25,524 nt of DNA from a virus, in the IMG/VR virus record IMGVR_UViG_3300037258_000433, positions 1 to 25,524 of that record; one strand, 5' to 3'. Position 1 is the stretch's first letter, and each line of letters begins with the position of its first letter. The notes beneath the pieces are model-generated. The model had not been told where the DNA came from. It was given only the letters and a program-made list of their open reading frames with translations, and searched no databases. The position numbers and the translations under genes were made by a program. Positions 10,155 to 25,013 of the stretch are shown here, in pieces.

Positions 10155-10294
10155 AACGTCACCGCCGCGGCGCATGTGAGACAGGCGATCAATACGGTGA
10201 GCAGGGCGCAGATCGTTCTTTTCAGGACAATATATTCGATGCCGGCGCAGATCAGCAGCAGGTTGGCGCAGATCAAGAGGATGGTAGTCTGCAT
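10151..10294 (-). CDS. membrane micropeptide, 47 aa
   Basis: The ATG at 10294 has AAGGA about 8 nt upstream. The peptide is strongly hydrophobic, in two blocks (about residues 4-22 and 29-46) separated by a short polar turn with KR, so it may span the membrane twice. It has four cysteines. It overlaps the next gene by GTGA. No family is recognised. Confidence 0.6.
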   Translation of the reverse strand: MQTTILLICANLLLICAGIEYIVLKRTICALLTVLIACLTCAAAVTL

Positions 10295-10612: not shown

Positions 10613-10660
10613 GAGCACAGTGGAGCGCTGCACTTTGTCTGTGCAGCGCTCTCTGTGCTC
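10613..10660 (-). repeat. long near-perfect hairpin after the 10660 gene
   Basis: GAGCACAG (10613-10620) pairs with CTGTGCTC (10653-10660). After a small internal bulge GAGCGCTGCAC pairs with GTGCAGCGCTC, giving 19 bp around a 7-nt loop. The outer end touches the stop codon of the upstream minus-strand gene. No U tract follows on either strand, so it may be an mRNA stabiliser or processing site rather than a simple terminator. Confidence 0.65.
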
Positions 10661-11256
10661 TACTGCGCAACTAGCTCGCGCAGCGCTGTCACTGTGTCGT
10701 TGTCGTTGAGCGTATAAGCGACGTGATTTGCAGTGTCGCGCGTCTCAGTCAGCACGTTGAACACTTGCAGCGCGTTGATGCTGCTCGACGACTGAGTCGA
10801 AGCAGTGTTCGCAGCAACATGCTTTGCGTAGCGTGCGCTCTTGATGATTGCAGCACGCGACTTGTCTTTATGCGTGACTGACATGCTGCACGCTGCTACA
10901 GCGTCAGCATGATTGAGCGTCGTTTCAGCAGTTTTGAGAGCGATAGCAGCGCGCACAATCGCGAGTGTGTAGTGATTCAGCGTCGCGCTTTTCGCAATCG
11001 CTTGTGCGAGATTTGCGACTTTCTCGCTCGCATAGACATTGAAGCGATTCGACGTGCGCTCAGACTTATTGATAAAGTCGGGCGCGACGTTGCTTGCGCA
11101 CATGATCGCGGCGATGGCGTCGCGGTCGAATGTCTTAACGAGCGAGTCGAGTGTCGATTGAATCGACGTGTTCGCGTCGTTTTTGCTCTGCTCGTATGAC
11201 TTACGCGCTGCACATGCGGCGAGCAATTCAGTCTTATATTCGCTTTGCTGTGTCAT
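10660..11256 (-). CDS. GG-free hypothetical protein gene, 198 aa (paralogue of the 7783-8622 gene)
   Basis: I start at the ATG at 11256; an in-frame TTG at 11292 would add 12 residues. The protein aligns with residues 110-279 of the 7783 gene product (ASNVAPDFIN, RFNVYA, TQSSSS). The coding strand has no GG dinucleotide at all and only about six CC by my count, although its GC content is moderate. The protein has no Gly, no Trp and one Pro, exactly the residues whose codons all need GG or CC. The avoidance crosses codon boundaries, so it acts on nucleic acid rather than on protein. A class A operator lies upstream and a long hairpin follows the stop. The family is not recognised. Confidence 0.75.
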   Translation of the reverse strand: MTQQSEYKTELLAACAARKSYEQSKNDANTSIQSTLDSLVKTFDRDAIAAIMCASNVAPDFINKSERTSNRFNVYASEKVANLAQAIAKSATLNHYTLAIVRAAIALKTAETTLNHADAVAACSMSVTHKDKSRAAIIKSARYAKHVAANTASTQSSSSINALQVFNVLTETRDTANHVAYTLNDNDTVTALRELVAQ

Positions 11257-11329
11257 TGTTTTGACTTTCGTTTGCGAGATCGCGTTGTGCAATCTCTATA
11301 AATGACAATACACGCTGCACAATATGGGA

Positions 11330-11347
11330 CAAGTAAAAACTGACTTA
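11330..11347 (-). promoter_or_regulatory. class A operator (copy)
   Basis: CAAGTAAAAACTGACTTA matches the 18-bp inverted repeat TAAGTCA-N4-TGACTTA with two mismatches. It lies 74 nt upstream of the minus-strand gene starting at 11256. Confidence 0.6.
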
Positions 11348-11728
11348 TTATGAGCAATAAAAGTGTTATGTTTAATGACTTTGCGCAATTATCTTAGCTA
11401 TGATGGCGTTGCATAGCTACTGCAATGGGGCGATACATTGTTGCGCTGCTATCGAAGTCCGCGCAAGATTATTACGCGGCGAACCCTATGCCGCCTGAGT
11501 TCTCAGCGTTTTTAATCCCTAGCCTTGGCGCTTAAATGTCTCTTAAACTGCGCATTATCCCGCTTAGTGGCTATCTATACGTTGACGATTGAGCGCCGGC
11601 GTATCTCTATGAGTTGACGCGACCAGGCCCTACCCTAATTATGCGCCTAGGGGCGCCCGAGCGTGATCTGCCAAGTTCCCGAATAAAGACGGGCTATCTC
11701 TTATAAATGTTGCTCAGATGTTCGTCCC

Positions 11729-11746
11729 AAATTTGTATACAAATTT
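11729..11746. repeat. 18-bp perfect palindrome
   Basis: AAATTTGTATACAAATTT reads the same on both strands. The TTGTATACAA centre resembles operators of GntR/FadR-type (FCD) repressors (established pattern, family assignment inferred). It lies about 200 nt upstream of the 11947 gene. No GntR-type gene is seen in the window. Confidence 0.6.
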
Positions 11747-11769
11747 CGGACAGCCTGCCCTTGGCGCTC

Positions 11770-11785
11770 ATAAGCCGGCGCTTAT
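11770..11785. repeat. 16-bp inverted repeat
   Basis: ATAAGC (11770-11775), CGGC, GCTTAT (11780-11785). It lies 24 bp downstream of the 18-bp palindrome, so the two may form one control site. A GCTATAACT sequence follows at 11811. Confidence 0.5.
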
Positions 11786-11946
11786 CCGAGAACACGCCCG
11801 CGCGCTCAGCGCTATAACTGAGACGTATCGACGCTCGCGTGGCACAAAATCTTGAAGGGCCTAGGTGTGCTCCGCTCAACGAGATTGGCCGTAGTTCCGT
11901 AAGGTGCGGTCTCACGCGGGCGCCGATCTGTCATTTGGAGAGCGCC

Positions 11947-12258
11947 ATGCGAATGCCCCAGGACTTTGTTGACGCCATTAACGCCGCTGTTCGTGAGATC
12001 AATCCAAACGCCGGCATCATGGTAGACGGCTCGATGACGCTGGGCTCAGACTTTGACGAATGGCTAGGGCCACAGGCGCTCAAGAAGTACGGCTTTGGAC
12101 CTATGCCGGCGGACGCCATAGCCGCGTTCGAGGCGAAGTTTGAAGAGAAGCGCGCCGAGCTGAAGGAAGCGGTTGTCGCCTCTGCGATCGAGGTTGAGAA
12201 GAAAATTATGAGAGGCGAGCTTGGCGACTTTAATTTCGGCGACAGCAACCGCGTCTAA
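11947..12258 (+). CDS. hypothetical protein, 103 aa
   Basis: The ATG at 11947 has TTGGAGAG about 6 nt upstream; the upstream in-frame extension is rejected as non-coding leader. The N-terminal half (about 1-55) is mixed, with an acidic SDFDEWLG loop. The C-terminal part (about 60-92) is a long charged helix (FEAKFEEKRAELKEAVV), likely coiled coil. The family is unknown. Confidence 0.65.
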   Translation: MRMPQDFVDAINAAVREINPNAGIMVDGSMTLGSDFDEWLGPQALKKYGFGPMPADAIAAFEAKFEEKRAELKEAVVASAIEVEKKIMRGELGDFNFGDSNRV

Positions 12259-12271
12259 ATAGGAATCTAAA

Positions 12272-12469
12272 ATGATCTCAGCCGATCAACCGCGAGAAAA
12301 TCCCGTCCTGGTCAAGATCGCCGAGCCTGGCGAGGACGTTGAGCTGAAGGCGATCGCCTACGTTCAGTCTGTGCTCACGTCGCTGCCAGTGGAGAGTCAC
12401 CAGCGAGTGCTGGACTATCTTTACAGCCGGCTACCGAACATTTTCACTTTTGAAGGCCGCCGCGAATAA
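12272..12469 (+). CDS. hypothetical protein, 65 aa
   Basis: The ATG follows AGGAATCTAAA. The protein has a helix-rich C-terminal two-thirds (ELKAIAYVQSVLTSLP, HQRVLDYLYSRL), reminiscent of small phage helical-hairpin proteins. It overlaps the convergent ribbon-helix-helix gene by 26 nt at the 3' ends. Confidence 0.6.
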   Translation: MISADQPRENPVLVKIAEPGEDVELKAIAYVQSVLTSLPVESHQRVLDYLYSRLPNIFTFEGRRE

Positions 12470-12617
12470 GCGCCTTGAGCTGCTTATCGCCGTATTTCTC
12501 CACCCACGTCTTGAATGAGGCTTCGAGCAGTTCTCTCATGCTCATGCCGTTGAGCGTGGCCGCGAGCTTGAAGGCGCGGTGAAATGCTGGCTCGATCTTG
12601 AAATTGAGGTCTTGCAT
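12444..12617 (-). CDS. ribbon-helix-helix-like DNA-binding protein, 57 aa
   Basis: The order is one beta-strand (LNFKI, residues 4-8), helix (PAFHRAFKLAATLNG) and helix (SMRELLEASFKTWVEKYG). It fits the ribbon-helix-helix fold of CopG/Arc/ParG-type regulators, which bind DNA as dimers through the strand. The length suits such a protein. The ribosome-binding site is weak. It is convergent with 12272-12469. No toxin partner is adjacent, so a phage transcription regulator is more likely than an antitoxin (inference). Confidence 0.65.
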   Translation of the reverse strand: MQDLNFKIEPAFHRAFKLAATLNGMSMRELLEASFKTWVEKYGDKQLKALIRGGLQK

Positions 12618-12712
12618 GGCGATCTCGTATCGCGGTTCGGGTCATCACTCCCGACTTAGCCATCGCCTTATGAAGTTCCAGCGACAGACCACGATTAGCG
12701 AAATCGCTCTAT

Positions 12713-13120
12713 TTAGGCAAGCCGGCGCCCGGACTTAATGAGGCCATTCATCAACTGAACGCCGAAGTGCTCGATGGAGTAGGCTTCGAACTCCTCTGAA
12801 GGATTTGGCTCGCCGATCAGATTGCACAAGGCTCGAAACACATGCACGGCCTCGTGAAAAATAACGCCCTGCGCTTTTACGGAGCCGACCTTGTAGAGAT
12901 CGTCAGCCGCGGAGACGATAACGGCAAGACCACCATTGTCGTTGTGAAATTTCGTGGTGAAAGCCTGCGATAGTTTCATCGCCGGCGGATAGGCGCTTTC
13001 CTTGACGCGCAGCCGGCGCATCTCCTTGTCCCAGGCTTTCTCGGACGGGCAAAAGCCATAGGTGAACGGGAAGTAGCCGTGATCGCACCAGATGACTTTA
13101 TGAATTATTCTTTTAGCCAT
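12713..13120 (-). CDS. HEXXH zinc-metallopeptidase-like protein
   Basis: A 135-aa protein with HEAVH at residues 89-93 (two zinc-binding His and the catalytic Glu) and a downstream SEEFEAYSIEH (109-117) that could supply a third ligand (E112). There is no signal peptide. Similar lone small proteins with HEAVH and a following E-F-E-A-Y occur in phages, with unknown substrates. It is the last of a run that begins with the helicase, 5 nt after the preceding gene. A GTTAA...TTAAC inverted repeat sits in the junction. Confidence 0.65.
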   Translation of the reverse strand: MAKRIIHKVIWCDHGYFPFTYGFCPSEKAWDKEMRRLRVKESAYPPAMKLSQAFTTKFHNDNGGLAVIVSAADDLYKVGSVKAQGVIFHEAVHVFRALCNLIGEPNPSEEFEAYSIEHFGVQLMNGLIKSGRRLA

Positions 13121-13125
13121 AATCG

Positions 13126-13869
13126 TTAAGTGCCTTTAACTTCCAAGATGCCGCCGTCGTAGTACGAGGGTAACGAGTAGCCCCACAGGGACTTGAGACG
13201 AGATGGCGAAATGTATTCCGAGGGTTTGGTGTGTCGTGACCATTTCTCTTTGATCGACTCGCCATGATCAGTCGCCCACTTATCGAGCGAGATAGACGAC
13301 GCCTCGTCTACGAAAATGCCCGTAGGCTCAAAGCCTTTTATAACCGGCGGCTCGGCCTTATACATTTCGGCCATCTTGCGCATTTCTTCGGCATCGAAGA
13401 TTGGAGACGCCTTCGTGATAGTCTCGATCTCAGCCGTGAAATCGTGCGGAGCATCTGCCGGCACAAATTGCGGGTAGTCGAAGATCCATTCGTATTCGAG
13501 AAAGGTGTCGAGCTTCACCGCGGCCCAGGTAAATCTCTCGCAATCGCGCGTGGTTTCGAGAGTGACGGCCGCATAAGGCGGAGTCTTCATGGACACTAGC
13601 TGCTCATAGCTATCGCCCACCATTGATGCTTTTCTAATCGCGTCGATGGACCAGCAAACAGTTTCGATTTTGAAAATATGACTTTCACCAGAAGCGATTG
13701 GTGACGGAGAGGGCCACATAGCGCCGGGCGTTAGCCATTCCGCTTCGGGATCAAGGTCAAGCTTGATTACTCGAACATCCCGCACATCGCCCTCGCGATC
13801 GTTCAGCCATCCGACGACTTTGCCTAGATAGCGAACCTCAAGAGCGTTCTCTGCGCGATCGGCTGACAT
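13126..13869 (-). CDS. hypothetical protein, 247 aa
   Basis: I do not recognise the family. The protein is acidic and mixed alpha/beta, with many Trp and Tyr and no membrane segment. An N-terminal V-R-Y-L-G-K-V-V-G-W-L strand pair and a C-terminal Y-I-S-P-S-R-L-K-S-L-W-G-Y stretch may be domain ends. It overlaps the kinase gene upstream by one base (TAATG), so the two are likely co-translated. Confidence 0.7.
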   Translation of the reverse strand: MSADRAENALEVRYLGKVVGWLNDREGDVRDVRVIKLDLDPEAEWLTPGAMWPSPSPIASGESHIFKIETVCWSIDAIRKASMVGDSYEQLVSMKTPPYAAVTLETTRDCERFTWAAVKLDTFLEYEWIFDYPQFVPADAPHDFTAEIETITKASPIFDAEEMRKMAEMYKAEPPVIKGFEPTGIFVDEASSISLDKWATDHGESIKEKWSRHTKPSEYISPSRLKSLWGYSLPSYYDGGILEVKGT

Positions 13870-14462
13870 TAGACTTTCTGATTACCAAGCGTTACCGTCT
13901 TGATGGCCGCCGAGACCTTCTCAACGAGGTCTTTGTACGCTTCGGCGTGAGAAAGACCGCGCGACAGACCATCATTGTTGATCCAGATATCGACGTACTC
14001 TTCGCGTATCTGATCGAAGGCATAGGGAGAGTTGGGAACATCGGGCCGACGAAGGCCGATCACAACGCCGCCGAGCTTCTTGTAGAAAGCGCCCTGACTC
14101 TTACGGCAGGAAGCATCGCAGTACGGGCCAGGATCGCCATCGGCGATCGAGCGAGTGATCATCCAGGGCGTCGCGGCATCACCGTGCATTTCCTCGAAGC
14201 GATTGCCAAGCTCGCCAAGCAATTCACGCACCTGCCATTTGCGGCCGAGCACTTCGACGAACTCCAATTTGCCTTCCTGCGTGAAAACCTGATCACGAGT
14301 CAGCCCGTATTGGTCCATCGCGATTTGCCGAAGCGGCAGGCCGCTGTCGATCGGCTTGGCGCCGATCATGTCGGCGAGAATTTGCTGAACAAGAGACTTG
14401 CCGGACTTGGGTTGGCCGACGAGAGCGATGATGCGTGGGAATTGCGGGGCTTGATCTATCAT
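13869..14462 (-). CDS. P-loop (deoxy)nucleoside monophosphate kinase-like protein
   Basis: A 197-aa protein with a P-loop GQPKSGKS (residues 16-23). Downstream, GRKWQVRELLGELGNRF and a later W-I-T-R-S resemble the phage-type dNMP kinase (T4 gene 1-like) fold, where this region holds LID and substrate-binding residues. Such enzymes phosphorylate dNMPs for phage DNA synthesis, including modified ones. The substrate is not predictable here. A class A operator immediately precedes the ATG. The gene begins the run 14462 to 12713 on the minus strand. Confidence 0.7.
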   Translation of the reverse strand: MIDQAPQFPRIIALVGQPKSGKSLVQQILADMIGAKPIDSGLPLRQIAMDQYGLTRDQVFTQEGKLEFVEVLGRKWQVRELLGELGNRFEEMHGDAATPWMITRSIADGDPGPYCDASCRKSQGAFYKKLGGVVIGLRRPDVPNSPYAFDQIREEYVDIWINNDGLSRGLSHAEAYKDLVEKVSAAIKTVTLGNQKV

Positions 14463-14479
14463 AAGTAAACTCTGACTGT
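14462..14479 (-). promoter_or_regulatory. class A operator abutting the kinase start codon
   Basis: On the plus strand TAAGTAAACTCTGACTGT. On the minus strand it ends in TTACTTATG, so the right arm touches the start codon of the kinase gene. A site this close could block ribosome binding as RNA or RNA polymerase as DNA. Confidence 0.6.
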
Positions 14480-14522
14480 TGAAGGTGAACGCAGAAATGG
14501 CGTCGGCGGCCCGACGCAGCGG

Positions 14523-14723
14523 CTAATGCTTCTCGATTTTCTCAGTCACACGATGATCGCCGCCATTTCGCTCGATCTGGGCACGCAACAATCGCGTGAG
14601 ACGTTGAACCTCATCTTCAAGAGCCTCATTCCGATCGAGCAAATACTTTAAGGTGAGAACGGGCGTGCCCTCACTGTTGAAGAAATGTACCGGATCAACG
14701 AGTCTCGTGTTTCTCTCTGTCAT
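14523..14723 (-). CDS. coiled-coil protein, 66 aa
   Basis: The ATG at 14723 has AAAGAG 6 nt upstream. After a short N-terminal part, residues 27-50 (LLDRNEALEDEVQRLTRLL) are a clear leucine-rich coiled coil. The tail is charged. The function is unknown. It lies 12 nt after the helicase gene and is likely in the same unit. Confidence 0.65.
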   Translation of the reverse strand: MTERNTRLVDPVHFFNSEGTPVLTLKYLLDRNEALEDEVQRLTRLLRAQIERNGGDHRVTEKIEKH

Positions 14724-14734
14724 TTATAGCTCTT

Positions 14735-16327
14735 TCATGCAGCTTTGCGTTCGGAGAACAGTTCCCAAGGAAAGTCCGCGCCTGGTGGAAGGATATTTTC
14801 AGCGAAACCAGGTGTCGCCTCGATAATTCCGCGTCGTTGACGCGCGTGATCGCGCAAATGACTGTTTAGATCGTCGGTAAAGTCCACAACGAACGTCACG
14901 TTCGCGCCAGACTTCTTGGCGCGCAGACCGCGGCCGACTCTTTGACGTAAAGCGACCTCGGCTTTGCCGCCGCCGGCAAGAATGACCATGCCAATCGCGG
15001 GGACATCGATACCGACATCCAAAATCGTTGTGCCGATCAAAACATCAATATGGCCGAAGCCAAAACCATTGAGGGCTCGCTTCCGCTCAGTTTGTTTGTT
15101 CTCACCTTGTAAAAATTGTGAGACCAGGCCGGTATGTCGAAGCATTTTTAGCAATATCGCGCCATGTTCCTTTCGCTGAACCAGAATAAGCACGGGCAAG
15201 CTGTGTTCTTTACATTTTTTCGCATAATGCACGATGCACTCGTTTCGAAACGTCGCGTCAACGATGCCAAACGTCACGGCTCGCTGATAGGGCGAAGATT
15301 TGCGCAGTTTCGGGTGAGGGGGCGGCGATCGGTAGAGAAAATAGGGCTTTGCCAAGATCCCGCGCTTGATGAGAAGCTGTTCGCTGACCTTTAGCAGAAT
15401 TGGGCCAAAAGCGGCCATCAGCCGCATGTTGTCCTCGGCGTCCGCGCGCATAAATGGCGTGGCGGTGAGAGCAACGCGAATGTCGGCGTTTTTGCACCAC
15501 TTCAGAATGTCGTAGTATGAATTGCCGCCGGCTTCGTGCGCCTCTTCGCCGATGACTATCTCGACCATCTCCAAAAGCTTGATTGTGCGTCGGCGCACTT
15601 TGATCTTCTCGTCGAAGCAAACCTGCGCCTCGGCAACACACTGAGCGCGCGTCATTGTGATGCCGGCCTTGGCAGTACGCTTCACGACCTGGCGAATCTC
15701 TTCATCCATCTTCGGCTCTTCGAGCTGCGAGATCAGTGACTGCACCATGCCCACGTTAATGCCGCGCGTCGGCGCCCACTCGCCATCCCCGATGACGCCA
15801 ACGCTAAATTTGCAGTCCTTTAAGAGCTGATCGCGCATCTGGTACATCAGAACGCCGCGAGTGGTGATAAACATCGTCATCCGACGATATCGCGAGACAA
15901 TCAATTTGGCGATTTTGGACTTGCCGCCACCGGTGGCGACCTGAATGATACCGCGGCCGTGCTTCTCGACCTGGCGCACCGCCCGAAGCTGAAAGTCGTA
16001 GTCGGGATTGTCATTGCCAAACTCATCGACGACAGGGCTCTCCGGCCCCAGTGGCTCGGGCGCGGGCTTCTTAACGATGTGTACGCTGTAGCCGGCGCGT
16101 GTCAGCTCGCCATGAACCAGATGCACAAAGCCCGCGGGAAACGTGCAGGTTCGCCTGGCAAAGAAACTAGAGCGCCCGTTCCACCCGCCGGTGGCGAACG
16201 CCTGCATAAACTCGTGGCCCTCGACCAGATAGCTAAGCTTCTCCGTAACCAGATTCTTCACCTGATCGTCGGCGTGAACAATCTTCGCCACAACGGCATT
16301 GGCTGCGATTATTAGTTGCTTAGGCAT
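14735..16327 (-). CDS. SF2 DNA helicase, UvsW-like
   Basis: A 530-aa superfamily 2 helicase. Visible elements: Q-motif (Q113), Walker A ATGGGKS (131-137), motif II GEEAH (260-264, where DEAH is usual), motif III TATPF (288-292) and motif VI QRVGRGLR (462-469). The N-terminal 110 residues form an extra domain (WNGRSSFF near 49-56), as in T4 UvsW and related phage helicases that branch-migrate forks. A charged insert lies between Ib and II (about 205-255). It is the first gene of a minus-strand unit; a class A site lies between it and the divergent ParB operon. It probably acts in replication or recombination. Confidence 0.85.
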   Translation of the reverse strand: MPKQLIIAANAVVAKIVHADDQVKNLVTEKLSYLVEGHEFMQAFATGGWNGRSSFFARRTCTFPAGFVHLVHGELTRAGYSVHIVKKPAPEPLGPESPVVDEFGNDNPDYDFQLRAVRQVEKHGRGIIQVATGGGKSKIAKLIVSRYRRMTMFITTRGVLMYQMRDQLLKDCKFSVGVIGDGEWAPTRGINVGMVQSLISQLEEPKMDEEIRQVVKRTAKAGITMTRAQCVAEAQVCFDEKIKVRRRTIKLLEMVEIVIGEEAHEAGGNSYYDILKWCKNADIRVALTATPFMRADAEDNMRLMAAFGPILLKVSEQLLIKRGILAKPYFLYRSPPPHPKLRKSSPYQRAVTFGIVDATFRNECIVHYAKKCKEHSLPVLILVQRKEHGAILLKMLRHTGLVSQFLQGENKQTERKRALNGFGFGHIDVLIGTTILDVGIDVPAIGMVILAGGGKAEVALRQRVGRGLRAKKSGANVTFVVDFTDDLNSHLRDHARQRRGIIEATPGFAENILPPGADFPWELFSERKAA

Positions 16328-16357
16328 TGACGCGAGGTCTTTTTCATGGCTATGTGA

Positions 16358-16375
16358 TAAGTCAATACTGACTGT
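16358..16375. promoter_or_regulatory. class A operator between divergent helicase and ParB units
   Basis: TAAGTCAATACTGACTGT, with a perfect GTCA-N4-TGAC core. It is 31 nt upstream of the helicase start on one side and 16 nt upstream of the ParB start on the other, so one site could control both directions. Confidence 0.65.
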
Positions 16376-16390
16376 TGAGGTAAATAGCTA

Positions 16391-17050
16391 GTGGCAAATC
16401 TAATTTCCGTGCATCCAAGCCGGCTGCGGGCAAACCCGTGGAATACGAACTTCGTGTCGCCCGAGAATGAGATCAAGCTCGCGAGATCGCTTGCGGAGCT
16501 GGGCGAGTTCAAGCCGATTATAGTTCGAGAACTTTCCGACGGCACGACTGACTTCGAAATTCTTGGCGGCGAACATCGATGGAGCATCGTGCGCGATAGC
16601 GGCGCCGATGAGATTTCCATCTACAATCTTGGCGTTGTCGATGATTTGAAGGCGAAGAAGATATCGCTTGCAGACAACCCTCGCTATGGCGCCGACGACA
16701 CCCTGGCGCTCGCAAAGCTTCTTGAGGAAATCGGCACCGCGGACGAAATTCAACAGTTCTTGCCTTTTACCGACAGTGACATCTCAGCGATCTTCAGCGC
16801 TTCAGATATAGCGCTTGAAGAGCTGGAGTTGCCGGAAAGTTTCGAGGAAAAGGCAGACGCTCTCGAAATCAAGCCGGAGCGCGCGCCGAAAACGCATACG
16901 ATCATGCGCTTCAAGGTGCCGCTTGGTGACGCCGAGCGCATTACCGAAGTAATCACTAAAACGCAGAAGCGCCAGGGCTACAGCTCATCGGACGAGCTGA
17001 CTAATGCCGGCGACGCGCTCGTGCATCTCATCTTCGCGGACAAAGAGTGA
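16391..17050 (+). CDS. ParB-domain protein 1
   Basis: A 219-aa protein with an N-terminal ParB/sulfiredoxin-like domain. V-H-P-S-x-L-x-x-N-P-W-N opens it, and the nucleotide-binding box is GEHRW (60-64), where chromosomal ParB has GERR. A helical stretch follows. There is no ParB HTH DNA-binding domain or dimer domain that I can see. It starts at GTG after GAGGTAAATAGCTA. Such single-domain ParB proteins are common in phages, often near DNA-modification genes, and may bind nucleotides or act on DNA. It opens the operon that includes the second ParB protein and the ABC-ATPase/GNAT pair, and ends in TGATG coupling. Confidence 0.8.
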   Translation: MANLISVHPSRLRANPWNTNFVSPENEIKLARSLAELGEFKPIIVRELSDGTTDFEILGGEHRWSIVRDSGADEISIYNLGVVDDLKAKKISLADNPRYGADDTLALAKLLEEIGTADEIQQFLPFTDSDISAIFSASDIALEELELPESFEEKADALEIKPERAPKTHTIMRFKVPLGDAERITEVITKTQKRQGYSSSDELTNAGDALVHLIFADKE

Positions 17051-17250
17051 TGGGGCCGCCGTTCAAAGAGCGCTTCACCGGCAGACACCCTGAATGCCGA
17101 CAGTGCGTCCACTTCAAACCAAATGCAGGCTCGATTCACTGCCTGAACTGCGGCGCCGGCGAGTTCTTCGAGGAAAAGGTCGATGACGAAGGCCCGGATG
17201 AGGACGATCTGAGAATTATATTTTCGAGCATGGATGGTGACTATGACTGA
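17050..17250 (+). CDS. small zinc-ribbon protein, 66 aa
   Basis: The ATG at 17050 shares a base with the preceding stop; a GTG at 17047 is also possible. It has C16-x-x-C19 and C31-x-x-C34, the classic zinc-ribbon spacing, followed by an acidic C-terminal half (KVDDEGPDEDD). Position between two ParB genes suggests an adaptor or nucleic-acid-binding partner (inference). It overlaps the next gene by 17 nt. Confidence 0.75.
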   Translation: MGPPFKERFTGRHPECRQCVHFKPNAGSIHCLNCGAGEFFEEKVDDEGPDEDDLRIIFSSMDGDYD

Positions 17251-17911
17251 AAAATCAAAGCAGCCGATCGAGCTGTGGGATATCGACAAGATAATCCCGT
17301 ACCCAAAGAACCCAAAGAAGCACTCGCAAGAACAGGTCGAGCGCCTCGCGCGCTCCATCGAGCGCTTCGGCATCACGCCCTTACAGGTCGAAGGCAATCA
17401 GGAAGGCTGTACGCCCGGATTGATCATCGCGGGTCACGGGCGCCGGCTGTCGATCATTCATCTCGGCCGCAAGAAAGCGCCGGTGATTGTTCGCAACGAT
17501 CTATCGAAGATGGAATGCGACGCGCTGCGCATCTCGGATAACGCCGCGGTGTCGAATGACATCGATTACGACCTTCTAGGCGAAGAGACAATTCGACTAG
17601 GCGAAGAGGGCTTTGAATTGAGCGATCTCGGCATGACCGACGCCGAACTGAAGGCTCTCACGACCGATATTGGCGAGATCGACGAAACGGCTTTCACGAC
17701 CGACATCACGGCGGCGGTCGAAGAGCAGAAGAAAGACAACGCCAAAAAGGAAGCTGAAATCGACGACAAAGAAGGCCCTGTCGGCGAAGCGCTCGGCTTC
17801 AAGAAAGTAACGACCGAACAGAGCCGCATCATTCGCGGCTTCATGGCTCGCGTCGAAGCAGAGACGGGCCTCAAAGGAGCCGCTGCGCTTGTTGCGCATA
17901 TCGGCGCGTAA
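17234..17911 (+). CDS. ParB-domain protein 2
   Basis: A 225-aa protein with an N-terminal ParB-like domain: I-P-Y-P-x-N-P opening, IIAGHGRR (64-71) in the nucleotide-binding box, and ISDNAA (100-105). The GHGR form is that of the phage and methylase-linked ParB-like family, not of chromosomal ParB. A charged linker (about 155-185) and a C-terminal helix follow, with no HTH domain seen. The start is ATG at 17234 or 17243. The operon partner ParB 1 has GEHR instead, so the two domains are not redundant copies. A class A operator overlaps the stop codon. Confidence 0.8.
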   Translation: MVTMTEKSKQPIELWDIDKIIPYPKNPKKHSQEQVERLARSIERFGITPLQVEGNQEGCTPGLIIAGHGRRLSIIHLGRKKAPVIVRNDLSKMECDALRISDNAAVSNDIDYDLLGEETIRLGEEGFELSDLGMTDAELKALTTDIGEIDETAFTTDITAAVEEQKKDNAKKEAEIDDKEGPVGEALGFKKVTTEQSRIIRGFMARVEAETGLKGAAALVAHIGA

Positions 17912-17926
17912 ATCAAAACTGAATTA
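17909..17926 (+). promoter_or_regulatory. class A operator upstream of the ParA-like gene
   Basis: TAAATCAAAACTGAATTA, two mismatches to the consensus. It overlaps the stop of ParB 2 and lies 20 nt before the ATG at 17947, suggesting an internal promoter or operator within the operon. Confidence 0.6.
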
Positions 17927-17946
17927 TCACAGGACTGGAACCTAAA

Positions 17947-18636
17947 ATGCTGACCAAGCCAAGCTGCAAGAACACCTTCATCCTCGTCGGCGCCGATAAA
18001 GGCGGCGTGGGCAAAACGACATTCTCACGATTGCTGCTCGAATATCTCGCGCAGTATCCGTGCTCGATGCGCGTATTCGACACCGAGCCCGGCCCTGGCG
18101 TGCTGCGTCGATTCTGGCCATCGGCCGAACAGATCAACCTCGCCGACCCAATCGATCAAGCCAAGGTCATCGATGGCCTAGGCGCGGCGCGCGTGACACT
18201 CGTGGACATTCGAGCCGGCCTTCTCTCGCCGACACTTCACCTGTTTCAGCGTATCGGTCTGGAACACGGCGTTGAAGCGCACCTCGCGGTGTTTCATGTG
18301 CTGGGCAATACGATCGCCTCATTCGGCGAGATCGCCACGACTGCGGCCATGCTAAAAAACAACGGCGACCACATCATCGTCAAGAACCACACCAACGCCG
18401 GCGCCTTCGTCGATGTGGAAGACAAGATCGCATCGCTCGGCCCCGAGACCAACATCATCGACATCGGCAATCTGGAAGCCGTTGCCGCGGAGCGAGTGGA
18501 TCAGCGCAGTCAGACCTTCGCCGACTTCACCTCGGACAAGACCAACTCGCGCACCATCCGCGGTATCACGCGATCTTGGTACGACGCTTCATTCGCCGAA
18601 CTCAACCAAGCCGGCGTCAACGCTCTCGTGAGCTAA
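17947..18636 (+). CDS. ParA/MinD-like P-loop ATPase
   Basis: A 229-aa protein with a deviant Walker A motif KGGVGKTT (18-25) whose signature lysine (K18) defines ParA/MinD ATPases, Walker A' aspartate in VFDTEPGPG (D45) and Walker B-like VTLVDIRAG (D87). ParA proteins dimerise on ATP and position DNA or complexes. Normal ParA works with a ParB bound to a centromere site. Here two ParB-domain proteins lie upstream, but neither has an HTH, so classic plasmid partition is not proven. It may instead be a MinD/MipZ-like or mobile-element family member. Confidence 0.8.
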   Translation: MLTKPSCKNTFILVGADKGGVGKTTFSRLLLEYLAQYPCSMRVFDTEPGPGVLRRFWPSAEQINLADPIDQAKVIDGLGAARVTLVDIRAGLLSPTLHLFQRIGLEHGVEAHLAVFHVLGNTIASFGEIATTAAMLKNNGDHIIVKNHTNAGAFVDVEDKIASLGPETNIIDIGNLEAVAAERVDQRSQTFADFTSDKTNSRTIRGITRSWYDASFAELNQAGVNALVS

Positions 18637-18641
18637 AGAAA

Positions 18642-18995
18642 GTGTCCGAAGAGCCAGAACAATCAAATGTAGTTGGTCTTTTCGATAAAAAGATCAGCGC
18701 CTCAAACGACGAGAAAGCGCCGGCCGAAAAGCCGGCGCAGCTCGTCGATCTCGCGGGTGTCGATCAAAACTCCGTGCGAACGCTTAATAGCGTCATCGAA
18801 GCGGTGCTGAAGCGAAAAGTGTCGGGTGTTTGCGTAATGGCCACGGGCGAAAATGGTCTGGGCTCATTTTGGCTCAGCTTCCCAGTGGGCAAACAAGCGC
18901 AGGTCGAAGCAACGCGATATCTCGGCCTGCTGGAACTATTCAAATCGATCGTGATCGAGGTTGTCGCGAATGGCGTTCAAGGCGAAGATGAATGA
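18642..18995 (+). CDS. hypothetical protein, 117 aa
   Basis: I choose the GTG at 18642 because the upstream part of the frame lies within the ParA gene and is Arg-rich. The N-terminal 45 residues are polar and disordered (NDEKAPAEKPAQ). The C-terminal part looks like a compact alpha/beta domain (GVCVMATGENGLGSFWLSF). No family is recognised. It is ATGA-coupled to the ABC ATPase, so it is likely to be a partner of it. Confidence 0.65.
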   Translation: MSEEPEQSNVVGLFDKKISASNDEKAPAEKPAQLVDLAGVDQNSVRTLNSVIEAVLKRKVSGVCVMATGENGLGSFWLSFPVGKQAQVEATRYLGLLELFKSIVIEVVANGVQGEDE

Positions 18996-19618
18996 AATAT
19001 ATCATCGATAAGCGCTTCAACACATCCGTCGAACGAACGCCGCGCGTTCTGGAGATCGCCGAAAGCTTTGGGCTTGGGCTCTCGCTCAAAGAGTTCGTCA
19101 TCTACGATCGCCTATCGATCGAGGTGAACCCCGGCGATGTGATCTACATCACGGGCCAATCGGGCTCTGGTAAATCGCTTCTGTTGCGCGAATTAGCGCA
19201 ACAGATGTCGAAAACATTCAGCGTTGTCAGCCTCGAAGACTTCGCCTTACCAAATAAGCCGGTCATTGAATGCCTCGGCGATACCACGACGCACGCGGCC
19301 GACTTGCTCGCAAAGGCAGGCATTTCGGACGCATGGATCTACATTCGAAATCCAAAAGAGCTGTCCGACGGCCAACGCTATCGCCTGCGCCTGGCGATGC
19401 TCATGGATATAAAGGCCGACGTGTGGGTGGCGGATGAATTTGGCGCCGTGCTCGACCGCGTCACGGCAAAATGCGTCGCGTTCAACATACAGAAGATGGC
19501 GCGCGCTCTAGGCAAAACTCTGATCGTGGCAACAACGCATACGGATCTGAAGGAAGAGTTAGGCCCATCGCTGACGATCACCAAGCGATTTCGCGAGAAG
19601 GTCATTATCGAGCGATGA
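18992..19618 (+). CDS. ABC-type ATPase (soluble, COG2401-like)
   Basis: A 208-aa ATPase with a full ABC set: Walker A GQSGSGKS (55-62), signature LSDGQ (124-128), Walker B VWVADE (144-149, catalytic E149), D-loop LD (154-155) and H-loop H183. No transmembrane partner is nearby. The nearest known arrangement is COG2401, an ABC ATPase fused to a predicted acetyltransferase in archaea; here the two are separate genes overlapping by 4 nt. It probably powers or regulates the acyltransferase complex rather than transport (inference). It is expressed from the ParB operon. Confidence 0.8.
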   Translation: MKYIIDKRFNTSVERTPRVLEIAESFGLGLSLKEFVIYDRLSIEVNPGDVIYITGQSGSGKSLLLRELAQQMSKTFSVVSLEDFALPNKPVIECLGDTTTHAADLLAKAGISDAWIYIRNPKELSDGQRYRLRLAMLMDIKADVWVADEFGAVLDRVTAKCVAFNIQKMARALGKTLIVATTHTDLKEELGPSLTITKRFREKVIIER

Positions 19619-20535
19619 TCGCAGGGAACGTCGCTGACGCGCTGCGCGACGAAAGAGACACCGAGACAGTCATCGAGCGAACGGCAGCACCGGCACCGCG
19701 TTTCTCGCTCACTGAGCGTATGTTTATAGAGCGGGGAGACAGGTCAGACTGGGATCTGTTGCACGATCTGCATTACAAGGCAGAAAATCTCCCGATCGGC
19801 CCGAAATTCTGGAAACTGACGCTTGAAGGCGAGACCATTGGCGTGCTCGTCACGGGAAATCCGAAAGGACTTCTAAAAGAGCGCCACATCGCTTTCCCGT
19901 CGATCAAGCCGACTGGCAAAGATACGAAGCTCACCAACACGCAGCGCTACGTCTACATCAACCGAAATTTTCGCGTGGTGTCGCGATTTGTCGTGGACAC
20001 GATGTATCGCGGCATCGGCGTCGGCTATCGAATGATGAATTTAGTGGCTCGCATGGAGGGAAAGACCTTCATGGAGATCCAGTCATCCATGTCGAAGTTC
20101 AATCTGTTCGGGCAGAAGGCGGGCTTTCATTTCGTCTCGCCGCGCAACTCCAACAAATACGAAGAGGGCCTCAAGTTCTTTCGCGGACACTTTACGGCAA
20201 GCCCGCAGGACTTCGTCGCAATTCTCGATGAGCTGAAGACGAAGGCGCCGGCAGAGCGCGAAAGCCTGCTTCAAGACTGCAAGACCTTCTACTACCGGCA
20301 CTCAGCGATGGAAAAGACCGGCGTGTCTTTGCATCACCGCGATACCGCGGAAGATCGCGTGAACGCGATGGGTGAAGGCGAAGTAATTCGAAAATTGCAG
20401 CAGCTAACCATGACATCGCCACTCTACGGCGTGTGGAAGTGTCCCGACAAAACGCCGGCACCACAGCGGCTGCCGCTAAGCGCATTCGATTGGCAAAAGC
20501 CAAACGAGAAATTCAAACCGAGAGAGTTTGCATGA
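19615..20535 (+). CDS. GNAT-family acyltransferase linked to the ABC ATPase
   Basis: A 306-aa protein starting at the ATG that overlaps the ABC stop (ATGA). The GNAT acetyl-CoA pyrophosphate loop is YRGIGVG (131-137), the R/Q-x-x-G-x-G motif. LHDLHYK (49-55), G-E-T-I-G-V-L (72-78) and a long basic C-terminal half (about 190-306) complete it. LHYK near the N-terminus and the ABC partner recall the GNAT half of COG2401, and phage Mu Mom, the DNA-modifying enzyme, is itself a GNAT-related protein (established). Substrates could be DNA bases, proteins or small molecules. That it modifies phage DNA is inference. Confidence 0.75.
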   Translation: MIAGNVADALRDERDTETVIERTAAPAPRFSLTERMFIERGDRSDWDLLHDLHYKAENLPIGPKFWKLTLEGETIGVLVTGNPKGLLKERHIAFPSIKPTGKDTKLTNTQRYVYINRNFRVVSRFVVDTMYRGIGVGYRMMNLVARMEGKTFMEIQSSMSKFNLFGQKAGFHFVSPRNSNKYEEGLKFFRGHFTASPQDFVAILDELKTKAPAERESLLQDCKTFYYRHSAMEKTGVSLHHRDTAEDRVNAMGEGEVIRKLQQLTMTSPLYGVWKCPDKTPAPQRLPLSAFDWQKPNEKFKPREFA

Positions 20536-20792
20536 ACGAAAATATCTTCGCCTACACAGCGCCGCCGTCAGAACATGCTTCAATGCCGCCGTACCTTTCG
20601 ACCAATCGCCAGGCGAACGGCATGATCGGCATCACAGTGCGCAGTTCGGTAGAGCTGGGCAGCACGACGGCGTACATCGAGCTAACCGAAGAACAATGGC
20701 TCGACTTTTTGCGTGAAAGCAACGCAAACGCGGCGCGCAAGCACAAACGAGAAGTTCTGGACAAGAAGCCCGAGGAACCCGAGGTCGCGTAA
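20532..20792 (+). CDS. hypothetical protein, 86 aa
   Basis: It starts at the ATG overlapping the GNAT stop. The N-terminal part is Pro/Ser-rich, the centre is a possible beta region (GMIGITVRSSVELGSTTAYI) and the C-terminus is basic and helical. The function is unknown. Coupling to the GNAT gene suggests it belongs to the same system. Confidence 0.65.
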   Translation: MNENIFAYTAPPSEHASMPPYLSTNRQANGMIGITVRSSVELGSTTAYIELTEEQWLDFLRESNANAARKHKREVLDKKPEEPEVA

Positions 20793-21064
20793 TGGGCGCT
20801 CACTACGAATTTGCGCAGACCGACAAACAGACCGAGATCATGAAGCTGATCCTCGCGCAGGCGGATCTCGGCAGCTACATCACGTTGACCGCTCTCCGGG
20901 AGCAGCTTTCGTACAAGCCATCCAAGCAGGCCATCTTGTGCTCGGTGCGGGTGCTAGAAGGACATGGCTTTTTAACCAAGATCCACCACGGCTGCCGGAC
21001 GATGGAGATTATACCGACAGCTCTCGCTTACTCCACCTTTAGAGCAACGCCGACCCGATTCTGA
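20792..21064 (+). CDS. winged-helix DNA-binding protein, 90 aa
   Basis: The ATG overlaps the previous stop (TAATG). Helices at about residues 12-23, 30-38 and 45-59 followed by a short wing (GFLTKIHHG ... TMEIIPTALAY) fit a small winged helix-turn-helix, a family common in phages. It is the last gene of the operon and could regulate it or the downstream terminase unit (inference). Confidence 0.65.
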   Translation: MGAHYEFAQTDKQTEIMKLILAQADLGSYITLTALREQLSYKPSKQAILCSVRVLEGHGFLTKIHHGCRTMEIIPTALAYSTFRATPTRF

Positions 21065-21086
21065 GCCGGATATTTGACCGTCTTTC

Positions 21087-21104
21087 GTCTCTTACTTTCT
21101 TTCT
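21087..21104 (+). repeat. dispersed 18-bp repeat, copy 2
   Basis: GTCTCTTACTTTCTTTCT, one mismatch from the copy at 7573-7590. It overlaps a 15-bp palindrome (CTTTCTTTAAGAAAG). The location between the ParB operon and the terminase unit suggests a regulatory role. Confidence 0.5.
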
Positions 21105-21163
21105 TTAAGAAAGAGTAGTAGTATAGAGCTTACTGACGGACCCGGATATTCGGAGAGAATCGA

Positions 21164-21181
21164 TAAATCAGGTCTGACTTA
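21164..21181 (+). promoter_or_regulatory. class A operator upstream of the terminase unit
   Basis: TAAATCAGGTCTGACTTA, one mismatch to a perfect inverted repeat. It lies 10 nt before the ATG at 21192, directly in front of the GGAG ribosome-binding site. Confidence 0.7.
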
Positions 21182-21191
21182 CGGAGCTAAA

Positions 21192-21923
21192 ATGTCTGAA
21201 GATACCCTACGACCGAGCGAAGGTGTCGTGGAGGAACCTGCGGAAGTTGTACCAGCACCGGCTGATGATACCCCGGAAGAAGACGCAGATGGCGTCGCTG
21301 GCAAGCGCTATTCCAAAGCAACCTGGGCAGAAATCGAGACGCATTGGCAATGCGGCACGATGAACGCCAAACAACTGATCGAAAAGTATGGCGTGTCGCA
21401 AGGCGCGCTTACGAAGCATTTCGCGCGCCATAAAATCCTACAATTCAGCAAGATGCACGTCCTCAAGCGTGAGGCGGAGATCAAGATCATGGGCGCCGCC
21501 GCGGCCGCCATTGATCCAAAGGCTGTTGAGTGGGAGACGAAAAAGAAGGGGCGCATCGCTGAAACCCGAGAGCATATCTATAACCTCTCGCGCGCCACAT
21601 ACGCGCGGGCGCTACGAATTGGTAAGGATATTCAAGACGGTGTTCGCAAAGAGGCTGAATGCGCAAACGATATAAAGATGCTTCGGCACATGGAAGCATT
21701 CATCGAGAAGAACCTCGCCAACCGCATGAACGTGCTGGAGGCGGAGAAGGAGATCGACGAGTCGCAGATGCCGACCCTGATCTTTCGCGATCTTACCGAA
21801 GAGGAAATTCAGGCGAAGGCCGAGTCAGACGGCGATGATGACGAGCTGGGCTTGGATGCGCCGGCAGATTCGACTCTGACGCTGGATGATGAAGACAGCG
21901 TAGTGGATGAAGGTGGCGTGTGA
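21192..21923 (+). CDS. terminase small subunit-like protein
   Basis: A 243-aa protein placed directly upstream of the terminase large subunit, as small subunits usually are. Residues 45-80 (WAEIETHWQCGTMNAKQL, then a helix with VSQGALTKHF) form a helix-turn-helix like that of phage small terminases, which recognise packaging sites. The N-terminus is disordered and the C-terminus is acidic (DDDELGLD...). The ATG has GGAG upstream. The stop overlaps the next start (GTGA). Confidence 0.75.
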   Translation: MSEDTLRPSEGVVEEPAEVVPAPADDTPEEDADGVAGKRYSKATWAEIETHWQCGTMNAKQLIEKYGVSQGALTKHFARHKILQFSKMHVLKREAEIKIMGAAAAAIDPKAVEWETKKKGRIAETREHIYNLSRATYARALRIGKDIQDGVRKEAECANDIKMLRHMEAFIEKNLANRMNVLEAEKEIDESQMPTLIFRDLTEEEIQAKAESDGDDDELGLDAPADSTLTLDDEDSVVDEGGV

Positions 21924-23224
21924 CCACCTCTCTTCTGCTGAGCACCACGGTAGAGCCGATCAAAAGCCCGGTGCTCACGCTCCACAAAGGGCAACGCAAG
22001 GTATTTAGCGATCATCGCCGGTTCAAGGTGGTGGTCGCTGGTCGTCGTTGGGGAAAGACACAAACAGCGAAGCTCGCGATCTTGCGGCGCGCGGTGCGCA
22101 AACGACAGCTCATCTGGTACGTGGCGCCGACTTACGGCATGGCCCGATCGATTTTGTGGGAGGAGCTGAAAGAGGCGATCCCGCGGGAATGGGTGCGTTC
22201 GATCAATGAAACCCGCATGTCTATTCTGCTCTACAACAAGACCAAGATCGAGCTGAAAGGCGCCGATAAGCCCGACACCCTACGCGGCGTGGGCCTGGAT
22301 CTTCTCATCATCGACGAGGCGCAGGATATTCGCGAAGTCACCTGGTTCAAGGTGCTGCGGCCGACGCTGGCGTCTACCCGCGGCGACGCGCTCATCATCG
22401 GCACGCCCAAGTCGTTCAACTGGCTTTACGACCTCTACATGCTGGGTCAGCGCGGCGACACCTATATCAGCAAGCGCGGCAAGCTGCTCATCAATCCGTG
22501 GAAGAGCTGGCAGTTCCCGACATACACCTCGCCGTTTATCCCGCGCTCGGAAATAGAAGCGGCGAAGGCGGATATGGACGAGAAATCGTTCAATCAGGAG
22601 TTCAACGCCAGCTTCGAAACGATGTCGGGGCGCGTGTATTACGCCTTCGATCGCGCCGTGCATGTCGGCATGTATCCATTCAATCCGAAGCTGCCGATCT
22701 TGATAGGCCAGGACTTTAACATCGACCCGATGTCCTCGGTCATCATGCAACAGCAGCCAAATGGCGAAATTTGGATTGTTGATGAGTGCATTTTGAACGG
22801 TTCGAACACGCAGGAGACGGCGGATGAGATTTCGCGCCGTTATTTCAAATGGACAAAGAACGTCATCTTCTACCCGGATCCCGCCGGCGCCAGCCGATCG
22901 ACGAAGGGCAGGGGCGAGAGCGATCTGGATATTCTGCGCGACGCCGGCTTCACACGACTAAAGTACCGCCGGAAGCATCCCAAGGTCGCCGATCGTATCA
23001 ACTCGGTGAACCGCATGTGGAAAGCGGCCGACGGCTCAATTCGGATGCGAATAAACAACACCTGCAAGGTGACCATCAACTCGATGGAGCAGACGATCTA
23101 CAAGCCAGGCACTCGTGAAGTAGACAAGTCGGCGGGCCTGGAGCACGCCGGCGACGCGCTTGGCTATTACATCGACCTCGAATTTCCCGTGCGCAATATC
23201 AAGATCATGGGTATTTCTCTGTAA
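21920..23224 (+). CDS. terminase large subunit (packaging ATPase-nuclease)
   Basis: A 434-aa protein with the terminase ATPase Walker A GRRWGKT (41-47), Walker B LLIIDE (128-133) and a C-terminal nuclease domain beginning at IGQDFNIDP (262-270, D265 candidate metal ligand), with later acidic residues. It powers DNA packaging into the head and cuts the genome. Start GTG at 21920 in the GTGA overlap with the small subunit, supported by AAGGTGG upstream. This gene is the firmest evidence that the window is phage DNA. Confidence 0.95.
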   Translation: MTTSLLLSTTVEPIKSPVLTLHKGQRKVFSDHRRFKVVVAGRRWGKTQTAKLAILRRAVRKRQLIWYVAPTYGMARSILWEELKEAIPREWVRSINETRMSILLYNKTKIELKGADKPDTLRGVGLDLLIIDEAQDIREVTWFKVLRPTLASTRGDALIIGTPKSFNWLYDLYMLGQRGDTYISKRGKLLINPWKSWQFPTYTSPFIPRSEIEAAKADMDEKSFNQEFNASFETMSGRVYYAFDRAVHVGMYPFNPKLPILIGQDFNIDPMSSVIMQQQPNGEIWIVDECILNGSNTQETADEISRRYFKWTKNVIFYPDPAGASRSTKGRGESDLDILRDAGFTRLKYRRKHPKVADRINSVNRMWKAADGSIRMRINNTCKVTINSMEQTIYKPGTREVDKSAGLEHAGDALGYYIDLEFPVRNIKIMGISL

Positions 23225-23232
23225 GCAAATAG

Positions 23233-23250
23233 TAAGTCAGTCTTGACTTA
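23233..23250 (+). promoter_or_regulatory. class A operator, perfect inverted repeat
   Basis: TAAGTCAGTCTTGACTTA is an exact 7+4+7 inverted repeat, the best copy in the window. TTGACT within it (23243-23248), 16 nt and TAGTAT (23265-23270) could be a promoter whose start point would be near the portal ATG. Confidence 0.75.
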
Positions 23251-23276: not shown

Positions 23277-25013
23277 ATGTCAGACCAATCTCAGGCGGGC
23301 TACCCTTCCTCAGTGGAAGCCTTCACGCCGGCTTTTCAGTCGGATGTGCAGTTGGCAGCGGGCTTGCTTAACGCCCAAGGGCCACAGCCGGCGATCGGTG
23401 GGGCGGACGATCAACAGCAGCGCCTATTGGCGTTTTTGAAGCGTCGGCACCCTCAGTATGAGGAGATGCTGCGACATTGGATCTTCGCGGAAGAGACGTA
23501 CAACGGTGGGCGGGAGTGGTTCAAGCCGCACAACATTTTCCGATACATTAAGGAAGGCGATAAGGAATTTCACGATCGCCTGGCGCGCTGCTATCGGTTC
23601 AATCACACGCGAGAAGTAACGGATCTCGTTCAGAAATACATCTTCAAGTCGCCGGTTACTCGAAATACCGAAGACGCGCCGGCGGAGGTAAAAGCCTTTT
23701 GGCTGAAGGCGACGCTATCCGGTCTAAACATTGATCAATTCGCCAAGACCATTTCGACCGCAAGCTCGATCTTCGGACGCCCTTGGGTGTTCGTCGATTC
23801 GACAAAAACGGAAGATATTCAGTCGAAGGATGACGAAAAGAAATCAGGCGTTGGCGTCTATGCTTATGTCGTAGGGCCGCGCGACATTCTCGATATCGGC
23901 TTCACCGATCGCGGCGACGTGAATTGGGTGCTGGTGCGCGAGACGGTGCGCGACGACGGTGATCCAGTCAACTCGTCCGGTGCAATGTTCGACCGCTATC
24001 GCCTTTGGACCCGAACCGAATGGGTTCTATATAAAATTGAGGAAACGGCAGACTCAAGCGCGGCGAAGAGCAAGAAAAAGAGCAGGCTTGTCGTAATCGA
24101 GCTGGATCGCGGCAATCATGATCTCGGCGAAGTGCCGGGCTTCCCGTGCGATCACACCGTCGGCGACTATCGATATTCGGCGCCGTCGCTGATTGGCGAC
24201 ATTGTCTATCTCGACCGCGCCGTGGCCAACTATCTCTCGAACCTAGACGCCATCATTCAGGATCAAACCTTTTCGCAGCTCGCAATGCCCGCTCAAGCGG
24301 TGCTACCGGGCCAGGATGCCTATGATGCGCTGGTCGAAATGGGCACGAAGCGAGTGTTCGTTTATGACGGCGAGGGCAACGCTAAACCGGAATATCTGTC
24401 TCCTGACGTAAAACAGGCTCGCCTGGTCATGGAGACGATCAGCATGATCATCGCTGAGATTTATCACACCATCGGCATGGCGGGCGAGCGCACCAAAAGC
24501 GACAACACGGTTGGCATCGACGACTCATCGGGTGTCGCTAAGGCATACGATTTTGAGCGCATGAACTCGCTTCTGACATCAAAGGCGGACTCGCTTGAAA
24601 ACGTGGAAAACAAGCTGATCCGTCTCGTGATGCTCTGGCATGACAAGGCGGCGCAAGTGCCGCCCGACAGCCTGGTGAAATACCCGGATACGTTCGACGT
24701 GCGCAGCTTGTTCGACGAGTTCACAATCGCCGAGCGTCTTGCGCTGGTAGAAGCGCCCGACGGCGTGCGTCAGGAGCAGATGAAGCAGGTCATCGCCAAG
24801 CTGTTTCCGCGGCTCGCGGTGGATCTGAAGAACAAGCTGATCGATGGCCTGAAAGATTGGCCGCCAGAGCTGAACCTGGTTGTCACCGAGACAGCGGGCG
24901 GCAGCGGGCAGCCTGCAAAATTCCCATCGACGGGCAAGCGGCAGACGCAGCCTGGATCGAATTTGAAGCGACCGAAAAACGCCAAAACGACGAACACACA
25001 AGGACAAGCCTAA
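23277..25013 (+). CDS. portal protein
   Basis: A 578-aa protein immediately after the terminase large subunit. The length, the R-Y-x-F-N-H-T-R-E motif (about residues 117-124), V-G-P-R-D-I-L-D-I-G-F and a D-N-T-V-G-I-D-D-S-S-G stretch near residues 405-415 fit phage portal proteins. The portal forms the ring at the head vertex through which DNA is packaged and ejected. No clear Shine-Dalgarno sequence precedes the ATG. The tail is Pro/Lys/Thr-rich. It overlaps the next gene by one base. Confidence 0.8.
   Translation: MSDQSQAGYPSSVEAFTPAFQSDVQLAAGLLNAQGPQPAIGGADDQQQRLLAFLKRRHPQYEEMLRHWIFAEETYNGGREWFKPHNIFRYIKEGDKEFHDRLARCYRFNHTREVTDLVQKYIFKSPVTRNTEDAPAEVKAFWLKATLSGLNIDQFAKTISTASSIFGRPWVFVDSTKTEDIQSKDDEKKSGVGVYAYVVGPRDILDIGFTDRGDVNWVLVRETVRDDGDPVNSSGAMFDRYRLWTRTEWVLYKIEETADSSAAKSKKKSRLVVIELDRGNHDLGEVPGFPCDHTVGDYRYSAPSLIGDIVYLDRAVANYLSNLDAIIQDQTFSQLAMPAQAVLPGQDAYDALVEMGTKRVFVYDGEGNAKPEYLSPDVKQARLVMETISMIIAEIYHTIGMAGERTKSDNTVGIDDSSGVAKAYDFERMNSLLTSKADSLENVENKLIRLVMLWHDKAAQVPPDSLVKYPDTFDVRSLFDEFTIAERLALVEAPDGVRQEQMKQVIAKLFPRLAVDLKNKLIDGLKDWPPELNLVVTETAGGSGQPAKFPSTGKRQTQPGSNLKRPKNAKTTNTQGQA

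Follow-up and report, generated by a model that had tools for sequence, protein, structure and literature searches.

The 25,524-base stretch analyzed here (the window) is the whole of IMG/VR virus record IMGVR_UViG_3300037258_000433. It contains six copies of an 18-bp inverted repeat, TAAGTCA-N4-TGACTTA, beside genes that include a helicase, a kinase-like protein, ParB-like and ParA-like proteins, and the large terminase (Table 1). The window's large terminase is 62–67% identical to those of the Rhizobium phages RHph_N1_15 (N1_15), RHEph10, and B1VFA, which have genomes of 115–122 kb, and 56% identical to the terminase of SSU5. Its best match on a plasmid is pAMS5a of Methylobacterium (70% identity), followed by plasmids of Methylobacterium oryzae, Shinella, Pararhizobium, Rhizobium, Cupriavidus, and Acinetobacter. 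Acinetobacter commonly harbors related elements. Because the window's relatives contain plasmid replication genes (RepC, RepM, or TrfA), we read it as part of a phage-plasmid: most likely, it is a 25.5-kb fragment, or about a quarter, of a roughly 115-kb member of the RHEph10/SSU5 supergroup. SSU5-type phage-plasmids are among the main groups of phage-plasmids, with members in Salmonella, Klebsiella, and other enterobacteria (PMC11652158).

When we searched the window for TAAGTCA-N4-TGACTTA with up to three mismatches, we found nine matches, as compared to 0.32 expected, and none of 100 shuffled sequences reached nine. Six of these are the sites that an earlier, sequence-only reading of this DNA had listed as good copies of a candidate phage operator; the other three (at 4647, 6631, and 6635) are weak. 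Since the pattern was derived from the window itself, we also scored the window with a matrix built from 76 sites in its relatives only. The six sites had the six highest scores (13.0–24.9 bits), while the seventh-best score was just 7.2 bits. In random sequence with the window's dinucleotide composition, only 0.015 matches at 13.0 bits or above would be expected. So, all six copies are present, and the copy at 23233 is a perfect repeat, as had been claimed. The sequence-only reading also placed the sites directly upstream of genes, mostly within 35 nt of the start codon. This largely held, with distances of -1 to 37 nt; the gene near 11330 lies at the far end of this range, and beyond it if a later start codon is used.

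Table 1. Copies of the palindrome in the window. Scores are from the matrix built from relatives only; distances run from the end of the site to the start codon.
Position	Strand	Score (bits)	Location	Distance (nt)	Sites at the same genes in complete relatives
11330..11347	-	17.2	Upstream of gene 10660-11292 (phrog_9272, function unknown)	37 (70 if translation begins at the ATG at 11259)	pAMS5a, 61 nt upstream of the orthologue
14462..14479	-	17.2	At the start of deoxynucleoside monophosphate kinase-like gene 13869-14462	-1 (overlaps the A of the ATG)	N1_15, B1VFA, pAMS5a
16358..16375	.	24.2	Between divergent helicase (14735-16327, -) and ParB-like (16391-17050, +) genes	30 (minus strand), 15 (plus strand)	N1_15, B1VFA, pAMS5a (same position)
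17909..17926	+	13.0 (weakest)	Upstream of ParA-like gene 17947-18636; the site begins with the stop codon of the second ParB-like gene	20	
21164..21181	+	21.5	Before the terminase unit, whose first gene is 21192-21923 (DNA-binding, phrog_867)	10	N1_15, B1VFA, pAMS5a
23233..23250	+	24.9 (perfect)	Between large terminase (21920-23224) and portal-position gene (23277-25013)	26	

To look for the motif without supplying it, we searched the complete relatives de novo for gapped palindromes. This recovered the same design, with two 7-bp arms separated by 4 bp, and a half-site of TMARTMA, such as TAAGTCA or TAAGTAA, whose letters drift from genome to genome. In B1VFA, the motif is TAAGTAA-N4-TTACTTA, with 27 perfect copies as compared to 0.009 expected. 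The half-sites are TCAGTCA in pAMS5a and Cupriavidus, AATCA or AGTCA in N1_15, and AGTAA in pABTJ2; SSU5 has a weaker palindrome (TAGGTAA/TAAGTA). The palindrome is found in elements from β- and γ-Proteobacteria as well. SSU5 also has another dispersed palindrome, AAACAA-N1-TTGTTT (11 exact copies, 0.013 expected), which it shares with Cyrano, an SSU5-like phage-plasmid of E. coli LF82. This motif is distinct from the 7+4+7 palindrome and could indicate a second regulon.

We found 40 sites in N1_15, 39 in B1VFA, and 51 in pAMS5a. Most of them are intergenic (37/40, 37/39, and 38/51, respectively, versus 9–10% expected), and 33, 29, and 32 of them are at most 60 nt upstream of a start codon (8–9% expected). 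The distance to the start codon varies widely among sites, but for most of the sites in these three genomes it is 10–60 nt. Among the gaps between genes that could hold a promoter (at least 45 nt), 30/60, 34/60, and 32/60 have one. For five of the six sites in the window, pAMS5a has a site at the orthologous gene, and for four of the five, so do N1_15 and B1VFA. The ParA-like gene has no homolog among the complete relatives that we compared, whose ParA lies elsewhere. (In the window, this gene is directly behind two ParB-like genes.) More broadly, a site begins no more than 44 nt past the stop codon of the terminase gene in 98 of 106 related loci, some of which are duplicates of one contig, as compared to 4.0 expected, and the distance is nearly always 7–12 nt.

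As controls, we used shuffled sequences, the fraction of sites expected to be intergenic, and the fixed position of sites behind the terminase. Searching with the pattern written backwards is a poor control where the motif is of the TCAGTCA type, since its reversal resembles the original. The idea of a phage operator would have been undermined if the sites were no more common than chance or were away from start codons; in the complete relatives, they are neither, and the regulon is far larger than six sites. The suggestion that the sites tie the helicase, kinase, ParB, ParA, terminase, and portal units into one regulon is well supported insofar as a dispersed operator links these operons, but the gene downstream of 11330 (phrog_9272) is not one of the named units. 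Our literature search found no description of this palindrome regulon, although most subscription papers were outside its reach.

The position of the sites relative to promoters suggests how they might act. In B1VFA, the 14 nt before the site contain TATAA in 10 of 31 cases, mostly beginning 7–9 nt ahead of the site, as compared to 2.5% elsewhere upstream. In pAMS5a, TATAA precedes the site in 4 of 31 cases and is not seen elsewhere upstream. In N1_15, only a looser form of the -10-like box is clearly enriched, and by eye, the boxes in the window are weak. A -10 box usually lies 6–8 nt before the transcription start, so with the box just ahead of the site, transcription is predicted to start inside the palindrome. 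This is the geometry expected of a repressor, as an activator would be expected to bind further upstream.

The two arms of the palindrome vary independently. At the variable positions in N1_15, the arms agree in 18, 18, and 19 of the 40 sites, as compared to 20.2, 19.8, and 23.9 if the arms were independent; at position 2 in pAMS5a, they agree in 23 of 51 sites (24.1 expected). Independent variation fits a symmetric protein dimer on DNA and does not fit an RNA hairpin, which requires compensatory changes. We are highly confident in predicting that the palindrome is a protein-binding operator.

We propose that a dimeric repressor encoded by the phage uses it as its operator; this repressor would be of the Cro/CI type (XRE family, HTH_3 domain) and have about 130–150 residues. 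While the element persists as a quiescent plasmid, one dimer would sit on each operator. Because the operator directly follows the -10-like box and would span the transcription start, the bound repressor would block RNA polymerase. With operators in about half of the gaps that could hold promoters, a single protein would silence many classes of genes at once, including those for replication, packaging, heads, tails, and nucleotide metabolism. The repressor would also confer immunity to related phages. Our estimate, judging from the genomes, is a probability of roughly 78% that master repression during lysogeny is the palindrome's main role.

The best candidate for the protein that binds the palindrome is a small XRE protein, which we consider very probable from the comparative evidence. 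It matches Pfam's HTH_3 above the cutoff in B1VFA and pABTJ2, and a profile of the family matches 434 Cro and the 434 repressor. In annotated relatives, the gene is near a replication or integrase gene and near CobT, CobS, and DNA polymerase III. The protein is present in RHEph10, RHph_Y2_11, and RHph_N1_10, in all eight of the IMG/VR genomes above 90 kb, and in 23 of 24 further records (the sole miss is a record of 63 kb). Among the relatives that we scanned, all those of 85 kb or more encode it, except for SSU5, which was isolated as a phage and has no XRE match. It was not found in three shorter fragments. The homolog in Cyrano, CYRAN_45 (69.7 bits), is listed as a putative repressor, and its transcription in lysogenic culture was 10-fold above background; genotoxic stress is reported to induce Cyrano (PMC9928086). 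Relatives of the XRE protein are also encoded by plasmids of 34–44 kb from Gemmobacter, Cereibacter, Lichenihabitans, and Thauera.

Compared to RHph_N1_10, the N1_15 copy of the repressor gene (around 11806–12213) lacks one base of a CCC run, so the annotated gene EVB78_078 is truncated. This could be a mutation or a sequencing error. Together with the lack of an XRE protein in SSU5, it is only suggestive of a link to isolation as a phage.

The window's own DNA-binding proteins probably do not include the binder, and we expect the repressor gene to be outside the 25.5-kb fragment. We infer that the XRE protein physically binds the palindrome, that it represses rather than activates, that it acts in lysogeny, and that its gene is in the rest of the genome. 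We rejected the phrog_9272-type proteins of the window (7783-8622 and 10660-11292) as the binder because we found no homologs of them in pABTJ2, Cupriavidus, or SSU5, all of which retain the operator.

To see if the XRE protein and the operator vary together, we compared the columns of the XRE alignment to the operator letters across 28 non-redundant genomes, using leave-one-out R2. The best predictor of position 6 of the operator is the column of Asn37 of B1VFA (R2 = 0.73), and the next-best column has R2 = 0.41. Lys or Arg in this column goes with C in all 15 rows, and Asn goes with A in all 12 rows; the Gln and Ser rows are mostly mixed. Aligning the profiles places this column at the first Gln in the recognition helix of the 434 type, which we take to be Gln28. 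Gln28 of the 434 repressor has long been known as a specificity residue. The link between residue and base is apt both chemically and by position, but it does not amount to proof of binding.

Several observations weigh against the proposed repressor or against the strength of this link. The tree requires only about three switches of residue and base, so there are just two or three independent pairs, all of them concordant. Also, control proteins with no role in binding reach R2 of 0.4–0.8 via shared ancestry (up to 0.66 with 25–26 genomes and 0.79 with 18 genomes). Our search for an XRE protein in the window found none. A few relatives lack a good operator directly upstream of the repressor gene, and several plaque-forming Rhizobium phages have an intact XRE gene, so phages can be isolated lytically without losing it. 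Finally, AlphaFold on six close XRE sequences gave a mean pLDDT (predicted local distance difference test score) of 52, and the model is too poor to use.

We considered whether another kind of factor might act at these sites. A different phage protein, such as a ParB-like protein, might bind them as a dispersed centromere or as a silencing element that happens to sit in promoters. The phage-plasmid N15 has dispersed centromeres, which is somewhat similar, and two ParB-like proteins adjoin an operator throughout the group. But a centromere would not be expected to have about 40 copies, one per operon, that are tied to start codons and -10-like boxes, and the columns of the ParB proteins predict the operator letter less well (0.47 and 0.42) than the XRE column does, so we consider this improbable. 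Similarly improbable is that the palindrome is an activator site or a promoter element for middle or late transcription, perhaps with a phage sigma factor. The sites are found at many replication and structural operons, and several relatives have an annotated sigma-like gene. However, with the -10-like box ahead of it, the site would overlap or follow the transcription start, and sigma factors recognize asymmetric promoters. Also, Cyrano and Cupriavidus, both of which have the operator, show no annotated sigma factor near CobT/CobS. We rejected a phage sigma factor because the geometry is wrong and the annotation does not extend across the group.

That the palindrome acts as an RNA hairpin in the 5' leader, controlling translation or processing, seems very unlikely. 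Many of the sites would be partly transcribed, and a stem of 7 bp with a loop of 4 nt is possible, but there is no sign of compensatory pairing at any variable position, and the single site at 16358 serves two divergent genes. We rejected the hairpin because of the independence of the arms. We give even less credence to a host regulator such as CtrA. Although CtrA sites control genes in some phages of α-Proteobacteria (PMC9437464), the CtrA consensus (TTAA-N7-TTAA) is found only once in the window, which chance could produce, and at none of the six sites, while the palindrome extends to elements from β- and γ-Proteobacteria. With the wrong sequence and the wrong symmetry, CtrA was rejected as well.

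If a Cro/CI-type repressor does bind these operators, then the pair would explain the dormancy of SSU5-type phage-plasmids and would allow immunity groups to be predicted from sequence. The operator would also show where regulated transcription units lie in these largely unannotated genomes. More tentatively, at a little short of even odds, we suggest that one small repressor silences this α-, β-, and γ-proteobacterial supergroup at 30–50 promoter-overlapping operators per genome, and that immunity types are set mainly by one residue in the recognition helix (Lys or Arg to read C:G, or Asn to read A:T). If so, superinfection immunity would be predictable from sequence.

Two other features of the window involve pairs of related genes. 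The proteins encoded at 7783-8622 (+) and 10660-11292 (-) are phrog_9272-like paralogs (32% identity) of unknown function; each has a separate best match in pAMS5a, and the latter is the one with an operator. Also, the small proteins encoded at 4503-4721 (+) and 9933-10175 (-) are related to each other (38% identity over 77 residues), and we found no known family for them.

The proposed system resembles several known systems and differs from each of them. Like the C1 repressor of the phage-plasmid P1, which has 22 dispersed operators (PMC8546580), it would combine a phage-encoded repressor with many scattered sites. However, P1's operators are asymmetric 17-mers (ATTGCTCTAATAAATTT) (PMC8546580), while the sites described here are symmetric, with about 40–50 per complete genome, and the candidate repressor is a small protein of the Cro/CI type. 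The sequence-only reading had likened the sites to stoperators or to start-associated sequences, and this comparison holds only for the presence of many dispersed copies, since both of those are asymmetric and mostly share one orientation. The stoperators of Cluster A mycobacteriophages such as L5 and Bxb1 are repressor sites whose consensus drifts with the repressor among relatives (PMC6550527), much as the letters drift here. But stoperators are 13-mers with a preferred orientation that are mostly away from promoters and stop elongation, in contrast to palindromes that abut -10-like boxes. The start-associated sequences of Cluster K phages lie just upstream of many start codons and are conserved gene by gene (PMC3203893), as are the sites in this group; they are asymmetric 13-mers of a different sequence (GGGATAGGAGCCC) that mostly share one orientation and have been proposed to act in translation. 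The features that we tested exclude membership in the P1 C1 operators or the Cluster A stoperators. In having a symmetric site suited to one helix-turn-helix dimer, and a specificity column in the recognition helix, the system is most like the operators of 434 and of P22 C2, except that those phages have a few operators clustered in one control region instead of single operators across the genome. The description that fits it best is a Cro/CI-type repressor-operator system that is dispersed genome-wide.

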